DNA from: Natronobacterium gregoryi SP2 | Lineage (GTDB): Archaea > Halobacteriota > Halobacteria > Halobacteriales > Natrialbaceae | Direction: 5' to 3' | Length of the DNA: 64,000 bases | NCBI RefSeq assembly: GCF_000230715.2 | Contig: NC_019792.1 | Location: 744,001-808,000, forward strand | In this document: positions 15,250 to 23,339 of the stretch, one piece after another | How positions within the stretch are numbered: the first letter of the stretch is position 1 | How the letters are laid out: every line of letters starts with the position of its first letter | Made by a program: the position numbers and the translations under genes | The notes under the pieces: model-generated | Databases searched by the model: none | Seen by the model: the letters and a program-made list of their open reading frames with translations, nothing else | What the model was told of the DNA's origin: nothing

Positions 15250-16161
15250 TTATGGCTGTTCTGGTTCCGGTACGTTTCCGTCGCGGGCGGCGTCCGGGTC
15301 GAACCCTCCACCGCGGAGTACACCCCGCTTGAGTTCGGCTGCCGTGGCCTCGAGTGCGGTGGCCGCGGGGGCGTCGCCCTCTCCGTGCTCGCCGATCAAC
15401 TCGACGAGTGCACTGCCGACGATGACGCCGTCGGCGCCGGCCTCGATTATCTCGGCCGCGTGGTCGCCCTCGCTGACGCCGAAGCCGACCGCTTTGGGCA
15501 CGTCGTACTCCGAGAGTCGGGCGAGACTGTCGTGGGTCGCCGACGAGACGTTCGCCCGCGCACCCGTGGTCCCGAGTCGGGCCTGGACGTACGCGAAGCC
15601 CGACACCTGAGACATGATGCGCTCGAGGCGCTCGCCTTCGGTCGTCGGTGCGACGATGAAGACGAGGTCCAGTCCGTGGTCGTCGCAGGCCTCGCGGAGG
15701 GGGTCGGCCTCCTCCGCGGGGAGGTCGGGGACGATGATCCCCGAGAGGCCGGCGGCTGCGGCGCGCTCGACGAAGGGACGAACGTCTGGCTCGTCTCGCG
15801 GCTTCGCCGCTCGACCGTCCGAGGCGCGTGGCGCCTCGCTCCCCCCATACTGCAGGATCATATTGTAGTACGTCATCACCAACAACGGCGCCTCCGTCTC
15901 GAGGTCGTCGACCAGTTCGAAAAAGCCCGCTGGCGTCGTGCCGGCCTCGAGCGCGCGGTTGATCGCCGCCTGGATCGTCGGCCCCTCGGCGATCGGCTCC
16001 GAGAACGGCAGGCCAAGTTCGATCAGGTCCGAGCCGCCGCGGTCGAGGGCCTCGACGTACGCTTTCGTGTCCTCGAGGGAGGGATCGCCCGCCGTGATGT
16101 AGGTGATCAGCGCGGGGTGGTTCTCGCGGATGGCGGCCTCGACGTCGCTGTCGGACGTCAT
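15250..16161 (-). CDS. trpA: Tryptophan synthase alpha subunit, with an in-frame insertion
   Basis: A 303-residue TIM barrel that splits indole-3-glycerol phosphate and channels indole to TrpB. Catalytic Glu lies in [10 protein letters not shown]; the second acid is Glu in PIAEGPT, where many bacteria have Asp. The phosphate site is [10 protein letters not shown] and [12 protein letters not shown]. About 18 extra residues, [17 protein letters not shown], interrupt loop 3 at about residue 107, between ILQYGG and PDVRPFVE; they are encoded by two hairpins (see findings). It overlaps trpB by 4 bp. Confidence 0.93.
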
Positions 16162-17426
16162 TCGAGCACCTCCACGTCCGGTGCGGCCTCGAGATCGCGT
16201 TTCTCTGTCTCCTCCAGCACGGTCTCTAAGTCCTTGTCGCCGCGACCGGAGACGGTGACGACGACGAGGTCGCCGAGTTCGTCGTGCGATTCTTCCAAGA
16301 ATCCCAGCGCGTGACTCGACTCGAGTGCCGGAATGATCCCCTCTAAGTTCGACAGGCGGTGGAAGCCGTTGAGCGCGGCCTCGTCGTCGACGTTCGTCGG
16401 CGTCACCCGTCCCGACTCGACCAGGTGGGCGAGTTCGGGGCCGACACCAGCATAATCGAGTCCCGCGCTGACGCTGTGGGACTCGACGATCTGGCCTTCC
16501 TCGCTCTGGAGGAGTTTCGTCATTGCGCCGTGGAGCACGCCGTCGCTGCCCGTCGACAGCGTCGCGGAGTTAGGCGCGAGGCCGTCCTCGGCGTCGATCT
16601 CGAGGCTCGAGCCGCCGGCTTCGACGGCGTACAACTCCACGTCTTCGTCGGGAACGAACGCGTGGAACGACCCCATCGTGTTCGAGCCGCCGCCCGCGCA
16701 GGCGACGACGCTGTCGGGGAGTCGTCCCGCCTGTTCTCGGACCTGTTCGCGGGCCTCTTCGCTGATGACCGACTGGAAGTCCCGGACCAGTTTCGGGAAC
16801 GGGTGGGGGCCGACGATCGAGCCGATGACGTAGTGGGTTCGCTCGACGGTCGCCGCCCAGTCGCGCATCGTCTCGTTGATCGCCTCCTTCAGCGTCCCCG
16901 ACCCCGCCGTCACGGGTGTTACCTCCGCACCGTTCATTCGCATCCGGTAGACGTTCGGCCGCTGGCGGTTGATGTCCGTCCGGCCCATGTAAATCTCGCA
17001 GGGCATATCGAGGTGGGCCGCCGCCATCGCCGTCGCCGTGCCGTGCTGGCCCGCGCCGGTTTCGGCGATGATCCGCTCTTTGCCCATGTACTTGGCCAGC
17101 AGGACCTGACCGAGCGCGTTGTTCAGTTTGTGTGCGCCGCCGTGGAGCAGGTCCTCGCGTTTGAGATAGATCTCCCGGTCGTAGCGCTCGCTCAACCGGT
17201 CCGCTCGCTGGAGCGGCGTCGGCCGCCCACCAAACTCGCGCAGTCGCTCGCGGAACTCGTCTACGAAGCCGTCCTCGTTTTCGAGGACGTATCGCTCGTA
17301 AGCGTCCTCGAGTTCCTGCAAGGCTGGCATCAACGCCTCGGGGACGTACTGGCCGCCGTAGTCGTCGCCGAAGGTGGCGTCGCTGGTCCGTTCTCGGTTC
17401 TCTTCGTCGTACTCGATCGTGCTCAT
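16158..17426 (-). CDS. trpB: Tryptophan synthase beta subunit
   Basis: A 422-residue PLP enzyme that condenses indole with serine. The PLP lysine is in [13 protein letters not shown], the phosphate loop is [12 protein letters not shown], and the catalytic Glu lies in AETGAGQHG. Length and motifs match TrpB1, the type that works with TrpA, rather than TrpB2. It lies between trpC and trpA, with 4-bp overlaps on both sides, so the three are translated in concert. Confidence 0.95.
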
Positions 17427-18208
17427 GTCTCTTCCTCCGGGGTCGCTCGCGTCAGTCGTCTCGTGTTTGCCTCGACGGCAGTCTCTGTCGCGCCGTGGTC
17501 CATGATTGCGTTCCCGACGAGCAAGGCATCGGCCCCCGCCTCGCGCATTCGACGGACGTTCGCCGGCGTCGAGATGCCGCTTTCGGCGACCAGGGTGATA
17601 TCGTCGGGCACCGCCCGCGAGACGGATTCGAACGTCTCGAGATCAACCTCGAGTCGCGCCAGATCCCGGTTGTTCACCCCGATGATCTCGGCACCCGACT
17701 CGAGGGCGGTCTCGAGTTCGGTCTCGTCGTGAACCTCGACGAGCGGCTGGAAGCCGCGGTCGCGAGCAGCCGCGACGAGTTCCTCGAGGTTCTCGACGAA
17801 CCGTGCGATCACAAGCATCAGGTCGGCCTTGACGACGTCGAGCTGATCCTCGCGCAGGACGAAGTCCTTCCGGAGGACGGGGACGTCGACGGCCTCGCGC
17901 ACTCGCGTCAGCGTCTCAGGCGAGCCGCCGAAGTGGCTCGGCTCGGTGAGCACCGAGATGGCGGCCGCGCCGCCCGCGACCATCGACTCGGCCAGTTCGA
18001 CGGGGTCGTCCTCGCGGGTACTGTCCGCGGTCGGACTCGTCGGCTTCACTTCCGCGATCACGGGGACGCGGCCATCGGCTTCCGCGCGCTCGAGTGCGTC
18101 CGGCAAGGATCGTGGCTCGACCTCGAGGGGAGCGTCGCCACCCGGTCGCTCCCGGGCGGCAGCAAGTATCGACGCCACCTCGGGGGCGAGCGCTGCACGT
18201 GAGTTCAT
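17423..18208 (-). CDS. trpC: Indole-3-glycerol phosphate synthase
   Basis: A 261-residue TIM barrel that closes the indole ring from carboxyphenylamino-deoxyribulose phosphate. Signatures are [11 protein letters not shown] (catalytic Lys), [17 protein letters not shown] (catalytic Lys), [17 protein letters not shown] and [20 protein letters not shown]. It is the first gene of trpC-trpB-trpA-aldolase; the promoter region carries an inverted repeat next to the start codon. Confidence 0.95.
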
Positions 18209-18307: not shown

Positions 18308-18796
18308 ATGGAGGACGTTACCGACGCTGGACTCTACGCGCGAGAGTCGTCGTACCTCGACCGGTACGTGCAACTCGGCGTCGCCAGCGGACGGGTCCTG
18401 GACGTTTCGTTTCCCGACCATCCCGACGACGAGGCGACCGTCGTCACCGACGACAGCGAAGAAACGCCGACTCTCGATCGGATCTTCGAGTACCTCGACG
18501 GACTCGAGGAAGTCCCCTTCGACGACGTCCAGGTCGCGTTGACGGTCCCGACCGACCAGCGGTCGGTCCTCGAGCAGGTCCAGACGCTCCCCTACGGCGA
18601 CCAGGTCGGCGTCGAAGCGCTCACTCGGATGACGCCGGGGCTCGATGCCGACGACGATGACGATCGCATCCTCGTCCGGACGGCATTGGACGCCAACCCA
18701 GCACCCATCTTGATCCCCGATCACCGCGTTCGGGACGGCCCGAGTGCCGCACCGCCTGCCGTCGAACAGAAACTACGCTCACTCGAGGGGCTGTAA
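18308..18796 (+). CDS. MGMT-like protein with Asp at the alkyl-acceptor position
   Basis: A 162-residue protein. The second half follows the DNA-binding fold of O6-methylguanine-DNA methyltransferase: TLPYGDQVGVEALTRM matches the helix after the usual I-P-Y-G-E motif, and ANPAPILIPDHRV matches the active-site segment NP.P..(I/V)PCHRV. The acceptor Cys is Asp here, so it cannot transfer alkyl groups. Proteins lacking that Cys (ATL proteins) bind damaged bases and flag them for repair; that role is a reasonable guess. It is divergent from trpC. Confidence 0.7.
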   Translation: MEDVTDAGLYARESSYLDRYVQLGVASGRVLDVSFPDHPDDEATVVTDDSEETPTLDRIFEYLDGLEEVPFDDVQVALTVPTDQRSVLEQVQTLPYGDQVGVEALTRMTPGLDADDDDDRILVRTALDANPAPILIPDHRVRDGPSAAPPAVEQKLRSLEGL

Positions 18797-19282: not shown

Positions 19283-20233
19283 TTAGCTCTCAATGGTTTC
19301 GGCCCACTCGAGCCCCAGCCCCTCGTGGACGAGGAACTCGAGAGCGTTGATGAGATAGTGCGCGACGACGACCACGAGCAGACTCCCAGTGAGGATGAAC
19401 ACCGCCGCGAGGACGAACCCGAGCAGGCCCGTGACGACGATGCCGACCGATCCCTGCATCCCGTGGCCGATACCGAAAGCAACCGAAGAGAGGACCGCGA
19501 GCAGCCACGGATCGATGCCAAACCCCATCGAGAACGCACCGATCAGGGCCGCACGGAAGAGCAGCTCCTCGAAGACGGCGATGATCGGCAACACGCCGAC
19601 TAGCAGCACGACCCAGCCACGAGTCGTCTCCGGAGCCAGCAGTTCTCGTAACTGTTCGTCGTGGTCGAAACCGAGCCAGGTCGCCGTCGCCGCACCGACC
19701 TCGTTTACGACGTAGAGACCGAGGCCAGCGGCGACGCCGACCACAACGCCGGTCTCGAGGTAGCCAACCGAGAACTCGATCCCCAGGGCTTCGGCAGGAA
19801 TCCCCGTATAGATCGCTGCGCCGACTAAAACGAGCGCGAACACACCCTGCGAGAGCGCGACGTTCGCGAGGATCACCCCCGTCGACAGCGATTCCGGATC
19901 GAGTTCTCCCTGCGTTGACCGCTTCGACCGTCCACGAACCGGCCGGTCGACCGGATCGGCGTCGCGACGGTCACTCTCGTCGCCCTCTTCCAGCACCGCG
20001 GCGACGTCGACTGCGTCTCCGTCGGCGTTTTGCCCAGAATCACCAGGCTCGCCGAACAGCCCCGACTCGCGACCGCCACTCGACTGTTCGAGTGCCGCTT
20101 TACCGTTCCGCCGAGGCGTCGACTGTGCAGTGTCAGAACCGTCGGAAAACGATGTCTGCGTTAGATGCGAGAGAACCAGCAGAAAGACGAGGACGACGCC
20201 CGTTATACCAGCGAACGCCGTCCAGTTTTCCAT
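19283..20233 (-). CDS. CPBP-family intramembrane glutamic endopeptidase
   Basis: A 316-residue membrane protein. An N-terminal helix (ITGVVLVFLLVLSHL) and a polar acidic linker (about 30-105) precede the CPBP/Abi core of about seven helices. The catalytic EExxxR motif appears in VFEELLFRAALIG, the second motif in VAFGIGHGMQG, and the third in VVVAHYLINALEFL. Members cleave prenylated or other membrane proteins; the substrate here is unknown. It lies immediately after lonB on the same strand (6 bp), which suggests joint expression of two membrane proteases. Confidence 0.85.
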   Translation of the reverse strand: MENWTAFAGITGVVLVFLLVLSHLTQTSFSDGSDTAQSTPRRNGKAALEQSSGGRESGLFGEPGDSGQNADGDAVDVAAVLEEGDESDRRDADPVDRPVRGRSKRSTQGELDPESLSTGVILANVALSQGVFALVLVGAAIYTGIPAEALGIEFSVGYLETGVVVGVAAGLGLYVVNEVGAATATWLGFDHDEQLRELLAPETTRGWVVLLVGVLPIIAVFEELLFRAALIGAFSMGFGIDPWLLAVLSSVAFGIGHGMQGSVGIVVTGLLGFVLAAVFILTGSLLVVVVAHYLINALEFLVHEGLGLEWAETIES

Positions 20234-20239
20234 CGGTAG

Positions 20240-22435
20240 TTACTGTGGGCTTGGGTTCGACCCGCCGACGGGCTGTTGGCGATCCAGTGCCGTCCCAGTG
20301 ATCTGCTTGAGTCGGTCGACCAGTGAGTCTTTCTTCGGCTCACCCTCGAGAGCGACATCTAGCACTTCGCTGATGTTCGAACAGGGAATGATGTCGACCA
20401 TCTCCTCGTACTCGTCTTCGATCATCACGTCCTGTTCGTTGGCCTTCGGGATGATGACCGTGTCACAGCCAGCCTTCGCGGCAGCCTCGATCTTGTGGGT
20501 GACGCCGCCGACCGGAAGCACGTCACCCCGGACCGACAGCGAGCCGGTCATCGCGACCGACTGGTCGATCGGAATGTCCTCCAGGGCGGAGATGACGGCC
20601 GTCGCCACCGTGATCGAGGCCGAGTCACCGTCGACGCCCTGCTGGCCAGCCTGGACGAACTGGATGTGGATGTCTTTCTCCGAGAGGTCGACGTCGGAGA
20701 ACTTCTTGATGATCGCCGAGACGTTCTGGACCGATTCCTCGGCCATCTCTTGGAGCTTGCCGGTTGCGATCACCTGACCGCCGCCCTGCGCGGGCGCGAT
20801 TTCGGCCATGACCGGCAGCATGATCCCCGAGTCTTCACCCATGACCGCGAGGCCGTTGACGCGGCCTTCGACGGCCTCCTCGGTGACCTGCAACTCGTAG
20901 TCCTTGCGCCGTTCGATGTAGTCGTCGGCAAGCTGTTGCTCGATCGAACGAGAGCGCTGTTTGGCCTGCAACACGTCGTCGCGAGTCGTATACTCGCGGT
21001 CCTCGGCACGAGCGATGTCGCCAGCGACCCGAACCAGCCCACCGAGGCTGCGGAAGTGCAACGTGAGATGGTTCTTCCGACCCGAACGGCGCTTGGCCTC
21101 GAGGATGAGCTCCTCGACGGCGTCGTCGGTGAAGTGAGGCAGGCGGCCGTCGCGTTCGACCTCCTGGGCGACAAACCGGGCGTACTTCCGGCGCATCTCG
21201 GGGGTGTCCTCGATAGTGTCGTCCATGTAGACCTCGTACCCGTATCCCTTGACGCGGTTCCGGAGTGCGGGGTGCATGTTCTCCATCGCGTCGAGGTTTC
21301 CTGCTGCGATCATGACGAAGTCACAGGGGACGGGCTCGGTCTGGACCATCGCGCCCGAGGAGCGTTCGCTCTGTCCGGTGATGGCGAACTCGCCTTCCTG
21401 GATCGCCGTCATCAACTTCTGCTGGGTACGGATGTCGAGCGTGTTGATCTCGTCGACGAACAGCACGCCCTTGTTGGACTTGTGAATCGAACCCGGCTCG
21501 ACGCGGTCGTGGCTGGGTGTCTCCATGCCGCCAGACTGGAACGGGTCGTGGCGGACGTCGCCCAGCAACGCGCCGGCGTGGGCACCGGTCGCGTCCTCGA
21601 AGGGGGCCTGGCGCTGATCGCCGTTGTCGACGATCATATTGGGCACCATCGCGTCGGTCCCGCGAGACGTATAGCGGAATATCAGCCAGATGATACCCGC
21701 AGCGAGGATGCCAAGCAGGATGTTCGCGGCCAAAAGCGCGTACACGATGACGACCGCGATGATGATCCACATCAGGATCGACCGCATCTGGTTGCGCTTG
21801 CGGGCTTCCTCCTTGTGCGCGTCGATTATCTGTTCGCCTTTCCCCGCAGGGACGGTTCGCACCTTCGGTGCGTTGCCATCGTCAGGGTTGTGATAGACCA
21901 GAACGTCCTGGAGGTCCTCCTGGGGCAGGAGTTGGCTCATCGCCTTCGCCAGCATCGACTTGCCGGTCCCCGGCGAGCCGATCATCATCACGTGACGGCG
22001 TTGCTTTGCCGCCTTGATGATGATGTCTCGGGCCTCGTCCTGGCCGATGACCTGATCGACGAGGCGATCCGGCACCTCGATATCGTCCGTCGAGTCGACC
22101 TGGAGGCCACCGAGCAAGTCGTCCTCGGCGTTTTCCTCGTCGATTTCGACGCCGGGATCGACGTCGACGGTACTACCGAGATCCTCGACGGTCTCGATGT
22201 CGTCTTCGTCGTTGGTAGTCGACTCCGAGCCGGATTCGACGCCGTCAGTCGAACCCCTCTCGGCTCGGTCACCGTCCTCCTCGAGCGGCGACCGTGCTCC
22301 TTGCGGACCCTCGTTGCCGTGGACCTGCTCCTCGTCCTGAGAGCGGTCTGTCCCCTGGCGACGATCCTCGTCGTGATCGTCGGTCGGCTCCGAAGGGTCT
22401 TCGGGAGTGTCGTCAACGTTCGTATCGTTGCTCAT
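20240..22435 (-). CDS. lonB: Archaeal membrane-anchored Lon protease LonB
   Basis: A 731-residue ATP-dependent protease; start chosen at [21 protein letters not shown] long acidic N-terminus (about 1-95), typical of halophile LonB, precedes the AAA+ module with Walker A GSPGTGKS. Two membrane helices ([30 protein letters not shown]) are inserted between Walker A and Walker B ([13 protein letters not shown]), the hallmark of LonB. The C-terminal protease domain has the Ser in GVDGDSASI and the Lys in [14 protein letters not shown]. LonB is essential in Haloferax and controls phytoene synthase and lipid composition. Start is 6 bp from the CPBP gene's end on the same strand. Confidence 0.95.
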
Positions 22436-22820
22436 AGAACTCTGTTCAGTACCTGATTCGAAGGGATTGGCACTGATATACTTTCTCCATGCGGCGGATG
22501 GTGTGGATGGCCAATACTGAGGCCTACAGCGGCCGACGGGGGTGAATGGCTCCCGGGTCCGAGCCGGCCTCGACTGCAATTTACCCCTCATACGAACCAA
22601 CATAACTCGGTCCCGTTTCCCCGCCGACTGACGAGTCGACCCGCCCCACACCATCCGGATCGGCCCAGCAGCCAGGCCTCGCCCGCCACTCAGTGGCGAT
22701 ACAACTCGATCAGACGATAGGTGTCCAGACCGTGACCACCGATCGGCAGCGATCGACGACAACTGCCCGCCTCACGGCGAACACGCCACGCTTAAGCGCC
22801 TTGCCAATCCAGTTACGGAC
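22436..22820. other. Intergenic region, 385 bp, between lonB and NMN adenylyltransferase
   Basis: The lonB promoter (TATA-like element near 22475-22483) lies at one side. A decayed copy of hairpin module B is at 22626-22692. A possible promoter for the plus-strand gene lies just before 22821. No gene was recognised. Confidence 0.55.
22626..22692 (+). repeat. Decayed hairpin module B
   Basis: GACTGACGAGTCGACCCG, then CCACACC and CCAGCAG, ending CGCCCGCCACTCAGTGG, follow the order of the intact module B at 5757 with scattered changes. The terminal CTAG has become CTCAG. Confidence 0.5.
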
Positions 22821-23339
22821 ATGACACGTGGGTTCTATATCGGTCGGTTCCAGCCGTTTCACGACGGCCACTACAGCGTGGTCGAACGGATCGCCGACGA
22901 CGTCGACGAACTGGTTCTCGGCATCGGCAGCGCCGACGACTCTCACACCGTCCGGAACCCGTTTACCGCCGGCGAACGAATCATGATGATCACCAAGTCA
23001 GTCGTCGACGACGACCTCGTCACCTACGCAGTGCCGATCGAAGACCTAGAACGAAATTCGGTGTGGGTGAGCCACGTCCAGAGCATGTGTCCGGACTTCG
23101 ACGTCGCCTACTCGAACAACCCACTGGTCATCCAACTCTTTCGCGAGGCCGGCATCGAGGTGCGCCAGTCACCCATGTTCAACCGCGAAGTCCTCGAGGG
23201 CTCCGAGGTGCGCGAACGGATGATACACGGCGACGACTGGGAGTCGCTCGTCCCCGCACCCGTCGTCGAAGTCGTCGGGGAGATAAACGGTATCGAGCGT
23301 ATCCAGATGGTGAGCGACTCTGATTCGAACGGCGGCTGA
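22821..23339 (+). CDS. nadM: Nicotinamide-nucleotide adenylyltransferase (archaeal NadM type)
   Basis: A 172-residue enzyme that makes NAD from NMN and ATP. The nucleotidyltransferase HxGH motif is GRFQPFHDGHYSVVE (residues about 7-21), and the adenine-binding loop is RNPFTAGERIMMI. A third block, SPMFNREVLEGSEVRERMI, carries the ISGT-like site. Length matches the archaeal NadM family (about 170). Gene starts are separate from lonB, and the SAM hydroxide adenosyltransferase gene follows on the same strand after a palindromic repeat. Confidence 0.9.
   Translation: MTRGFYIGRFQPFHDGHYSVVERIADDVDELVLGIGSADDSHTVRNPFTAGERIMMITKSVVDDDLVTYAVPIEDLERNSVWVSHVQSMCPDFDVAYSNNPLVIQLFREAGIEVRQSPMFNREVLEGSEVRERMIHGDDWESLVPAPVVEVVGEINGIERIQMVSDSDSNGG

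Follow-up and report, generated by a model that had tools for sequence, protein, structure and literature searches.

An MGMT homologue between trpCBA and lonB-nadM

The window, the whole stretch of 64,000 nucleotides of the Natronobacterium gregoryi SP2 genome that was analyzed, carries a homologue of the O6-alkylguanine methyltransferases (MGMTs) between trpCBA and a CPBP-lonB-nadM group. The coding regions of this locus are as follows (window coordinates, strand, feature, and evidence).

15250..16161, minus strand: trpA (TIGR00262)
16158..17426, minus strand: trpB (TIGR00263)
17423..18208, minus strand: trpC, the divergent neighbor, start of trpCBA, with 99 bases between the coding regions (NF041303)
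18308..18796, plus strand: Cys-less MGMT homologue, 162 amino acids plus stop (open reading frame; AlphaFold2 model, pLDDT 94.2; MGMT fold)
19283..20233, minus strand: CPBP/Rce1-like membrane protease (PF02517)
20240..22762, minus strand: lonB, open reading frame as listed, with a putative start (TIGR00764, searched with 20243-22462)
22821..23339, plus strand: nadM, nicotinamide-nucleotide adenylyltransferase, the syntenic anchor (TIGR01527)

The open reading frame of the homologue starts with ATG, contains the segment ANPAPILIPDHRVRDGPS, and encodes a protein in which PDHR stands where MGMTs carry PCHR. PF01035 matched residues 84 to 141 with 19 bits and an E value of 0.0012, under the Pfam cut-off of 27, and TIGR00589 gave 16.1 bits, under its cut-off of 46.4; the Pfam and NCBIfam matches were confined to the C-terminal part of the protein. 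A profile built from its homologues in Halobacteria (hereafter, the family) reached alkyltransferases of known structure with E values down to 2e-9. The AlphaFold2 model has a complete two-domain MGMT fold, and its best Foldseek matches were full-length MGMTs (E 5.8e-7). In VIA-align, the model was matched to Sulfolobus MGMT 4zyd_A with a Z score of 16.9 over 142 aligned residues at 2.1 Å, spanning residues 7 to 162, while a short MGMT-family protein of Vibrio gave a Z score of 8.1. A sequence-only reading had proposed MGMT homology, with structure prediction as a check and an unrelated fold as the outcome that would speak against it; the MGMT fold obtained bears the proposal out. The same reading had called the N-terminal half divergent, which holds for the sequence searches but not for the model, whose N-terminal domain is matched by MGMTs as well.

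Of 391 Halobacteria genomes searched, 390 gave a family match, and every one of the 86 genera was represented. The sole genome without a match is 88% complete, and the 377 genomes with a completeness of 90% or more and a contamination of 5% or less all had one. By table reading, five genomes carry two matches and the others one, and the plasmid collection contained none at an E value of 1e-5. Comparison of the window gene with four relatives gave dN/dS values of 0.08, 0.16, 0.18, and 0.28, indicating that the gene is kept by selection. A chance open reading frame or a pseudogene is ruled out by this distribution, by these ratios, and by the full MGMT fold of the model, and a sequencing error or a lone local mutation of the Cys by the presence of PDHR in all 43 loci of a homologue search, in which the nearest named relatives were Halobiforma, Natronolimnohabitans, and Natronorubrum. 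A few copies (L125/L137 of genome G389, L131 of G316, L132 of G369, and L166 of G072) are seemingly split, frameshifted, or enlarged, reflecting either assembly error or real change.

Residues of the active site and of the DNA grip

Alignment of the family with other MGMTs placed the following features in the window protein, all on the plus strand. We take Asn130, His139, and Glu160 to be the counterparts of human Asn137 (the Asn hinge), His146, and Glu172, respectively.

18611..18613: Val102, in the position of the base-flipping Tyr (human Tyr114); Tyr in 4 of 168 family rows
18617..18670: residues 104 to 121, lengthened and acidic turn of the helix-turn-helix (HTH) plus the first part of the recognition helix, up to the lost Arg-finger place, Ile121 (length and acid counts by group)
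18677..18679: Arg124, three residues past the finger place; Arg in 150 of 168 family proteins, Gly in all 55 rows of other MGMTs
18695..18697: Asn130, Asn hinge, kept in 168 of 168
18719..18721: Asp138, codon GAT, replacing the alkyl-acceptor Cys (human Cys145)
18722..18724: His139, kept in 168 of 168
18731..18754: residues 142 to 149, shortened active-site loop (loop lengths by group)
18785..18787: Glu160, kept in 167 of 168, the exception being L166 with its aberrant C terminus

The replacement of the acceptor Cys by Asp, which the sequence-only reading had reported, is confirmed at the codon level and extends across the family. Among 168 distinct family proteins, a sample partly chosen towards lineages in which variation was expected, the acceptor position is occupied by Asp in 152, Ser in 7, Thr in 5, Cys in 2, Ala in 1, and Gly in 1. 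The 55 other distinct MGMTs, of which 31 are haloarchaeal paralogues and 24 come from outside Halobacteria, all have Cys there. The two family rows with Cys, L135 (G021) and L136 (G285), are both basal, and L133 and L134, the sisters of L136, carry Ser. On the tree, these residues require at least four changes between Asp and not-Asp and two between Cys and not-Cys. A Cys in true homologues had been named as the finding that would count against the earlier reading; it is present in all 24 homologues from outside Halobacteria and in two of the four basal rows, but not in the crown of the family, where Asp stands. Four crown loci that have none of the neighboring genes considered below (L225, L226, L235, and L236) comprise three without Asp (Ser, Ser, and Thr) and one with it; these loci were partly selected for acceptor variation, and the counts take no account of kinship.

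The elements by which MGMTs hold and flip DNA bases are changed as well. The flipping Tyr is present in 55 of 55 other MGMTs and, within the family, only in the four basal rows. For the stretch corresponding to residues 104 to 121, the median length and the median number of acidic residues are 18 and 6 in the crown (165 rows, the window protein being included twice); the four basal rows have medians of 13.5 and 4.5, the Cys paralogues of 11 and 2, and the MGMTs from outside Halobacteria of 13 and 1. The acidic share of this stretch, relative to that of the rest of the protein, is 0.319 versus 0.189 in the crown, 0.364 versus 0.185 in the basal rows, 0.214 versus 0.160 in the Cys paralogues, and 0.093 versus 0.112 outside. 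Since haloarchaeal proteins are acidic throughout, the acidity of the HTH is in part background. In the model, the recognition helix (residues 117 to 128) begins inside the acidic run. The active-site loop counts 8 residues in 160 of the 165 crown rows and 7 in the other 5, compared to 12 in the basal rows and 12 to 17 elsewhere.

At the Arg-finger place, Arg is found in all 24 rows from outside Halobacteria, while the four basal rows carry Ala, Ala, Asp, and Gly, and Arg occurs in 21 of the 168 family proteins overall. The haloarchaeal MGMTs that keep the Cys (L078 to L107 and L175) are also without the finger, all 31 distinct rows having Val (20) or Ile (11) instead, so that loss of the finger alone is no proof of lost DNA binding. 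Mean entropies of the N- and C-terminal domains are 1.49 and 1.42 in the family (40 rows), 2.36 and 1.45 in MGMTs from outside Halobacteria (24 rows), and 1.57 and 0.82 in the haloarchaeal Cys paralogues (31 rows), groups that differ in age and sampling; the similar conservation of the two domains in the family fits a use involving the N-terminal domain.

Relatives, gene order, and descent

Compared to the AGT/MGMT/Ogt proteins (PF01035 and TIGR00589), the family shares the two-domain fold, the Asn hinge, the His of PCHR, the relay Glu, and the nadM gene order, but it is without acceptor Cys, Tyr, and Arg finger and has a longer, acidic HTH turn and a shorter active-site loop. The haloarchaeal Cys-MGMT paralogues, also PF01035 proteins, occur in the same organisms and equally have no Arg finger, but their PCHR, Tyr, and loop are intact, their distribution is patchy, they form a clade of their own, and nadM was not found alongside them (0 of 30 loci, with flanks reaching about 1.3 to 1.5 kb on each side). 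The alkyltransferase-like proteins (ATLs), such as E. coli YbaZ and Schizosaccharomyces pombe Atl1, have the MGMT C-terminal fold without an acceptor Cys, the place of which may be taken by Ala, and YbaZ keeps the His and the Glu. In the same alignment, YbaZ of E. coli K-12 also has the Tyr and the Arg, with Leu at the Asn-hinge column. A review describes ATLs as devoid of the N-terminal domain, usually with Trp in place of the Cys, and with Tyr, Arg finger, and HTH conserved (PMC10779285), unlike the family, which has the N-terminal domain in its model, Val102, Ile121, and the acidic HTH insertion. A plain ATL is thus ruled out on two features, namely, the N-terminal domain that is present and the Tyr, Arg finger, and HTH that are not conserved, and the family is most appropriately treated as a new clade of the alkyltransferase superfamily that is devoid of the Cys.

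Gene order was read from 36 haloarchaeal loci, selected by hand and each 12.5 kb long. trpC was present in 24, in all cases on the opposite strand and in 21 within 400 bases, while the CPBP protease gene was found in 19, lonB in 22, and nadM in 20; five loci had none of these neighbors, including that of the basal, Cys-bearing G021, which is a point against the history that gene order suggests. The three f11 basal loci carry nadM and lonB; nadM is adjacent in two of them, while in L221 it lies at a distance of about 2.5 kb. Among 24 archaeal loci from outside Halobacteria, 11 (L245, L246, L250 to L252, L254, L257, L262, L264, L265, and L267) have nadM overlapping the MGMT gene or at most 6 bases from it, and a functional link between NAD synthesis and alkyl repair is possible there. 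In two loci of genus g43, L106 (G188) and L107 (G112), the Cys-MGMT gene adjoins an ADTH-synthase-like gene and trpA; in G112, about 4.4 kb separate it from the Asp gene, and trpCBA is thus flanked by two MGMT homologues. For Haloferax volcanii, published work identifies lonB as HVO_0783 and the CPBP protease gene as HVO_0784 (PMC9263693) and HVO_0790 as fba2 (PMC8305020); from the gene order, the family gene of this species may be HVO_0785 or HVO_0786.

A tree built from 84 selected rows recovered the family as a single clade (100/99), in which the 41 crown rows grouped together (100/100) to the exclusion of the four basal rows; the haloarchaeal Cys paralogues formed a separate clade (100/100). 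An approximately unbiased (AU) test did not reject a joint clade of the family and these paralogues (p 0.373), and orthology therefore rests on gene order, that is, on the nadM and lonB neighbors shared, in part of the genomes, with the MGMTs of other archaea of the phylum. On this basis, the family looks like the old archaeal MGMT gene demoted in place. An origin as a decayed duplicate of the haloarchaeal Cys-MGMT, which the AU test leaves standing, appears quite improbable to us, since the nadM/lonB order ties the family to the MGMTs outside, the family occurs in almost every genome, compared to 69 of 194 genomes for a strong second copy, and the unconstrained tree puts the two groups apart.

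Possible roles of the family

On balance, we think it probable that the family descends from the ordinary archaeal MGMT gene, which in haloarchaea would have been altered at its original locus to give a protein that does not transfer alkyl groups any more and probably does not flip damaged bases. As judged from its residues, the crown protein, having no acceptor Cys, cannot transfer alkyl groups the way MGMT does, and the family has probably been put to another use than DNA repair by this reaction; it is most likely a repurposed, putative binding protein rather than an alkyltransferase. In a first step, the DNA grip would have been altered, the four basal members already combining an acidic HTH with the lack of an Arg finger while keeping the Tyr and the full loop, and two of them the Cys. 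In a second step, the crown would have lost Tyr, loop, and Cys, with Asp, or Ser or Thr in some lineages, taking the place of the Cys. Loss of the DNA grip thus seems to have preceded that of the cysteine, as read from a tree with four basal rows only. Arg124 could be a displaced finger, which is a point against a lost grip. The present protein would work by binding and not by catalysis. Asp, Ser, and Thr are good helix N-caps, and these residues are the main replacements of the Cys at a position where the model has a helical turn (138 to 140), which fits a role of Asp138 as a cap that keeps the turn of the former active site in place. A protein or a small ligand might then be bound, in a core haloarchaeal function, by what is left of the pocket, by the N-terminal domain, or by both.

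The main alternative is the one advanced by the sequence-only reading, namely, that the protein is a haloarchaeal ATL-like damage sensor, which would bind O6-alkylguanine without repairing it and hand it to UvrABC, with Arg124 in the changed HTH serving as finger. The MGMT fold, the absence of the Cys with His, Glu, and Asn kept, the frequency of Arg124, and the example of the haloarchaeal Cys paralogues, which manage without the Arg finger, are in line with it, as is the genome of the window, which has a UvrA (1,379 bits) and no PF01035 match over the cut-off. UvrA is weak evidence, since all 14 control genomes have a UvrA match too (over the cut-off in 12). Against a sensor stand the crown without Tyr, the shortened loop, the acidic insertion in the HTH turn, and the N-terminal domain; moreover, the S. 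pombe ATL structures matched the model with Z scores of just 8.6 and 8.0 and only in the C-terminal domain (residues 79 to 162). We therefore consider a sensor of this kind unlikely: of the earlier reading, the Cys-less haloarchaeal MGMT homologue with its Asp stands, whereas the ATL-type function is not supported, Tyr being replaced by Val and the finger position being Ile here and not conserved in the family.

A local regulator of trpCBA, in which the winged-helix part would have become an operator-binding protein divergent from its target, would account for the divergent trpC in two thirds of the loci (24 of 36), mostly within 400 bases, and the DNA-binding domains of PhoB and Fur do appear low in the list of structure matches. 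Their Z scores of about 3 to 4 are, however, at the level of a common arrangement, the recognition helix begins in an acidic run, and trpC is out of reach in 12 of the 36 loci, with no tested neighbor at all in 5, yet the gene is nearly universal; such a regulator is accordingly quite improbable. Least credible of all, and very improbable in our view, is an enzyme with a catalytic Asp138-His139-Glu160 set, for example, a dealkylase that would turn over repeatedly instead of being used once because water hydrolyzes the alkyl ester on Asp: the three residues are strongly conserved (152, 168, and 167 of 168), but Ser, Thr, Ala, or Gly replaces Asp in 14 of the 168 proteins in several tree lineages, the active-site loop and the Tyr are changed, and His and Glu are kept in the Cys-less E. 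coli ATL too.

The family bears on how MGMT is counted in haloarchaea. Of 194 haloarchaeal genomes, 183 had a PF01035 match over the cut-off. Seventy rows reached at least 62 bits; that of G021 is a basal family member, which leaves 69 genomes with a strong second copy, and the Cys was present in all 31 distinct second copies that were read. By subtraction, PF01035 passes in about 114 of the 125 genomes without a strong second copy, mostly through the Cys-less family. The window genome had no match over the cut-off; two of its weaker hits scored 12.9 and 11.2 bits. A candidate second MGMT in this genome (C1:2730158, 18 bits), covering 22 profile positions in an open frame of 55 residues with no MGMT-like open reading frame around it, was taken as chance. 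The 125 genomes, the window's own included, may be without classical O6-alkylguanine repair by MGMT. A published study reports no homologue of yeast MGT1 in Halobacterium salinarum NRC-1 (PMC2816208), and passages of a review of repair in H. volcanii contain neither "MGMT" nor "ogt" (PMC7776575). In the open-license PMC literature, we recognized no description of the Cys-less family and found no paper on HVO_0785, HVO_0786, or guessed Halobacterium tags.

As PF01035 passes on the Cys-less family, automatic annotation can count its members as MGMT and thereby credit haloarchaea with a repair activity that they may lack. The family also seems to preserve, in living lineages, a record of a DNA-repair enzyme that gave up its hold on the substrate earlier than its catalytic residue; moreover, it represents a nearly universal haloarchaeal gene whose role can be tested by deletion in H. 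volcanii.
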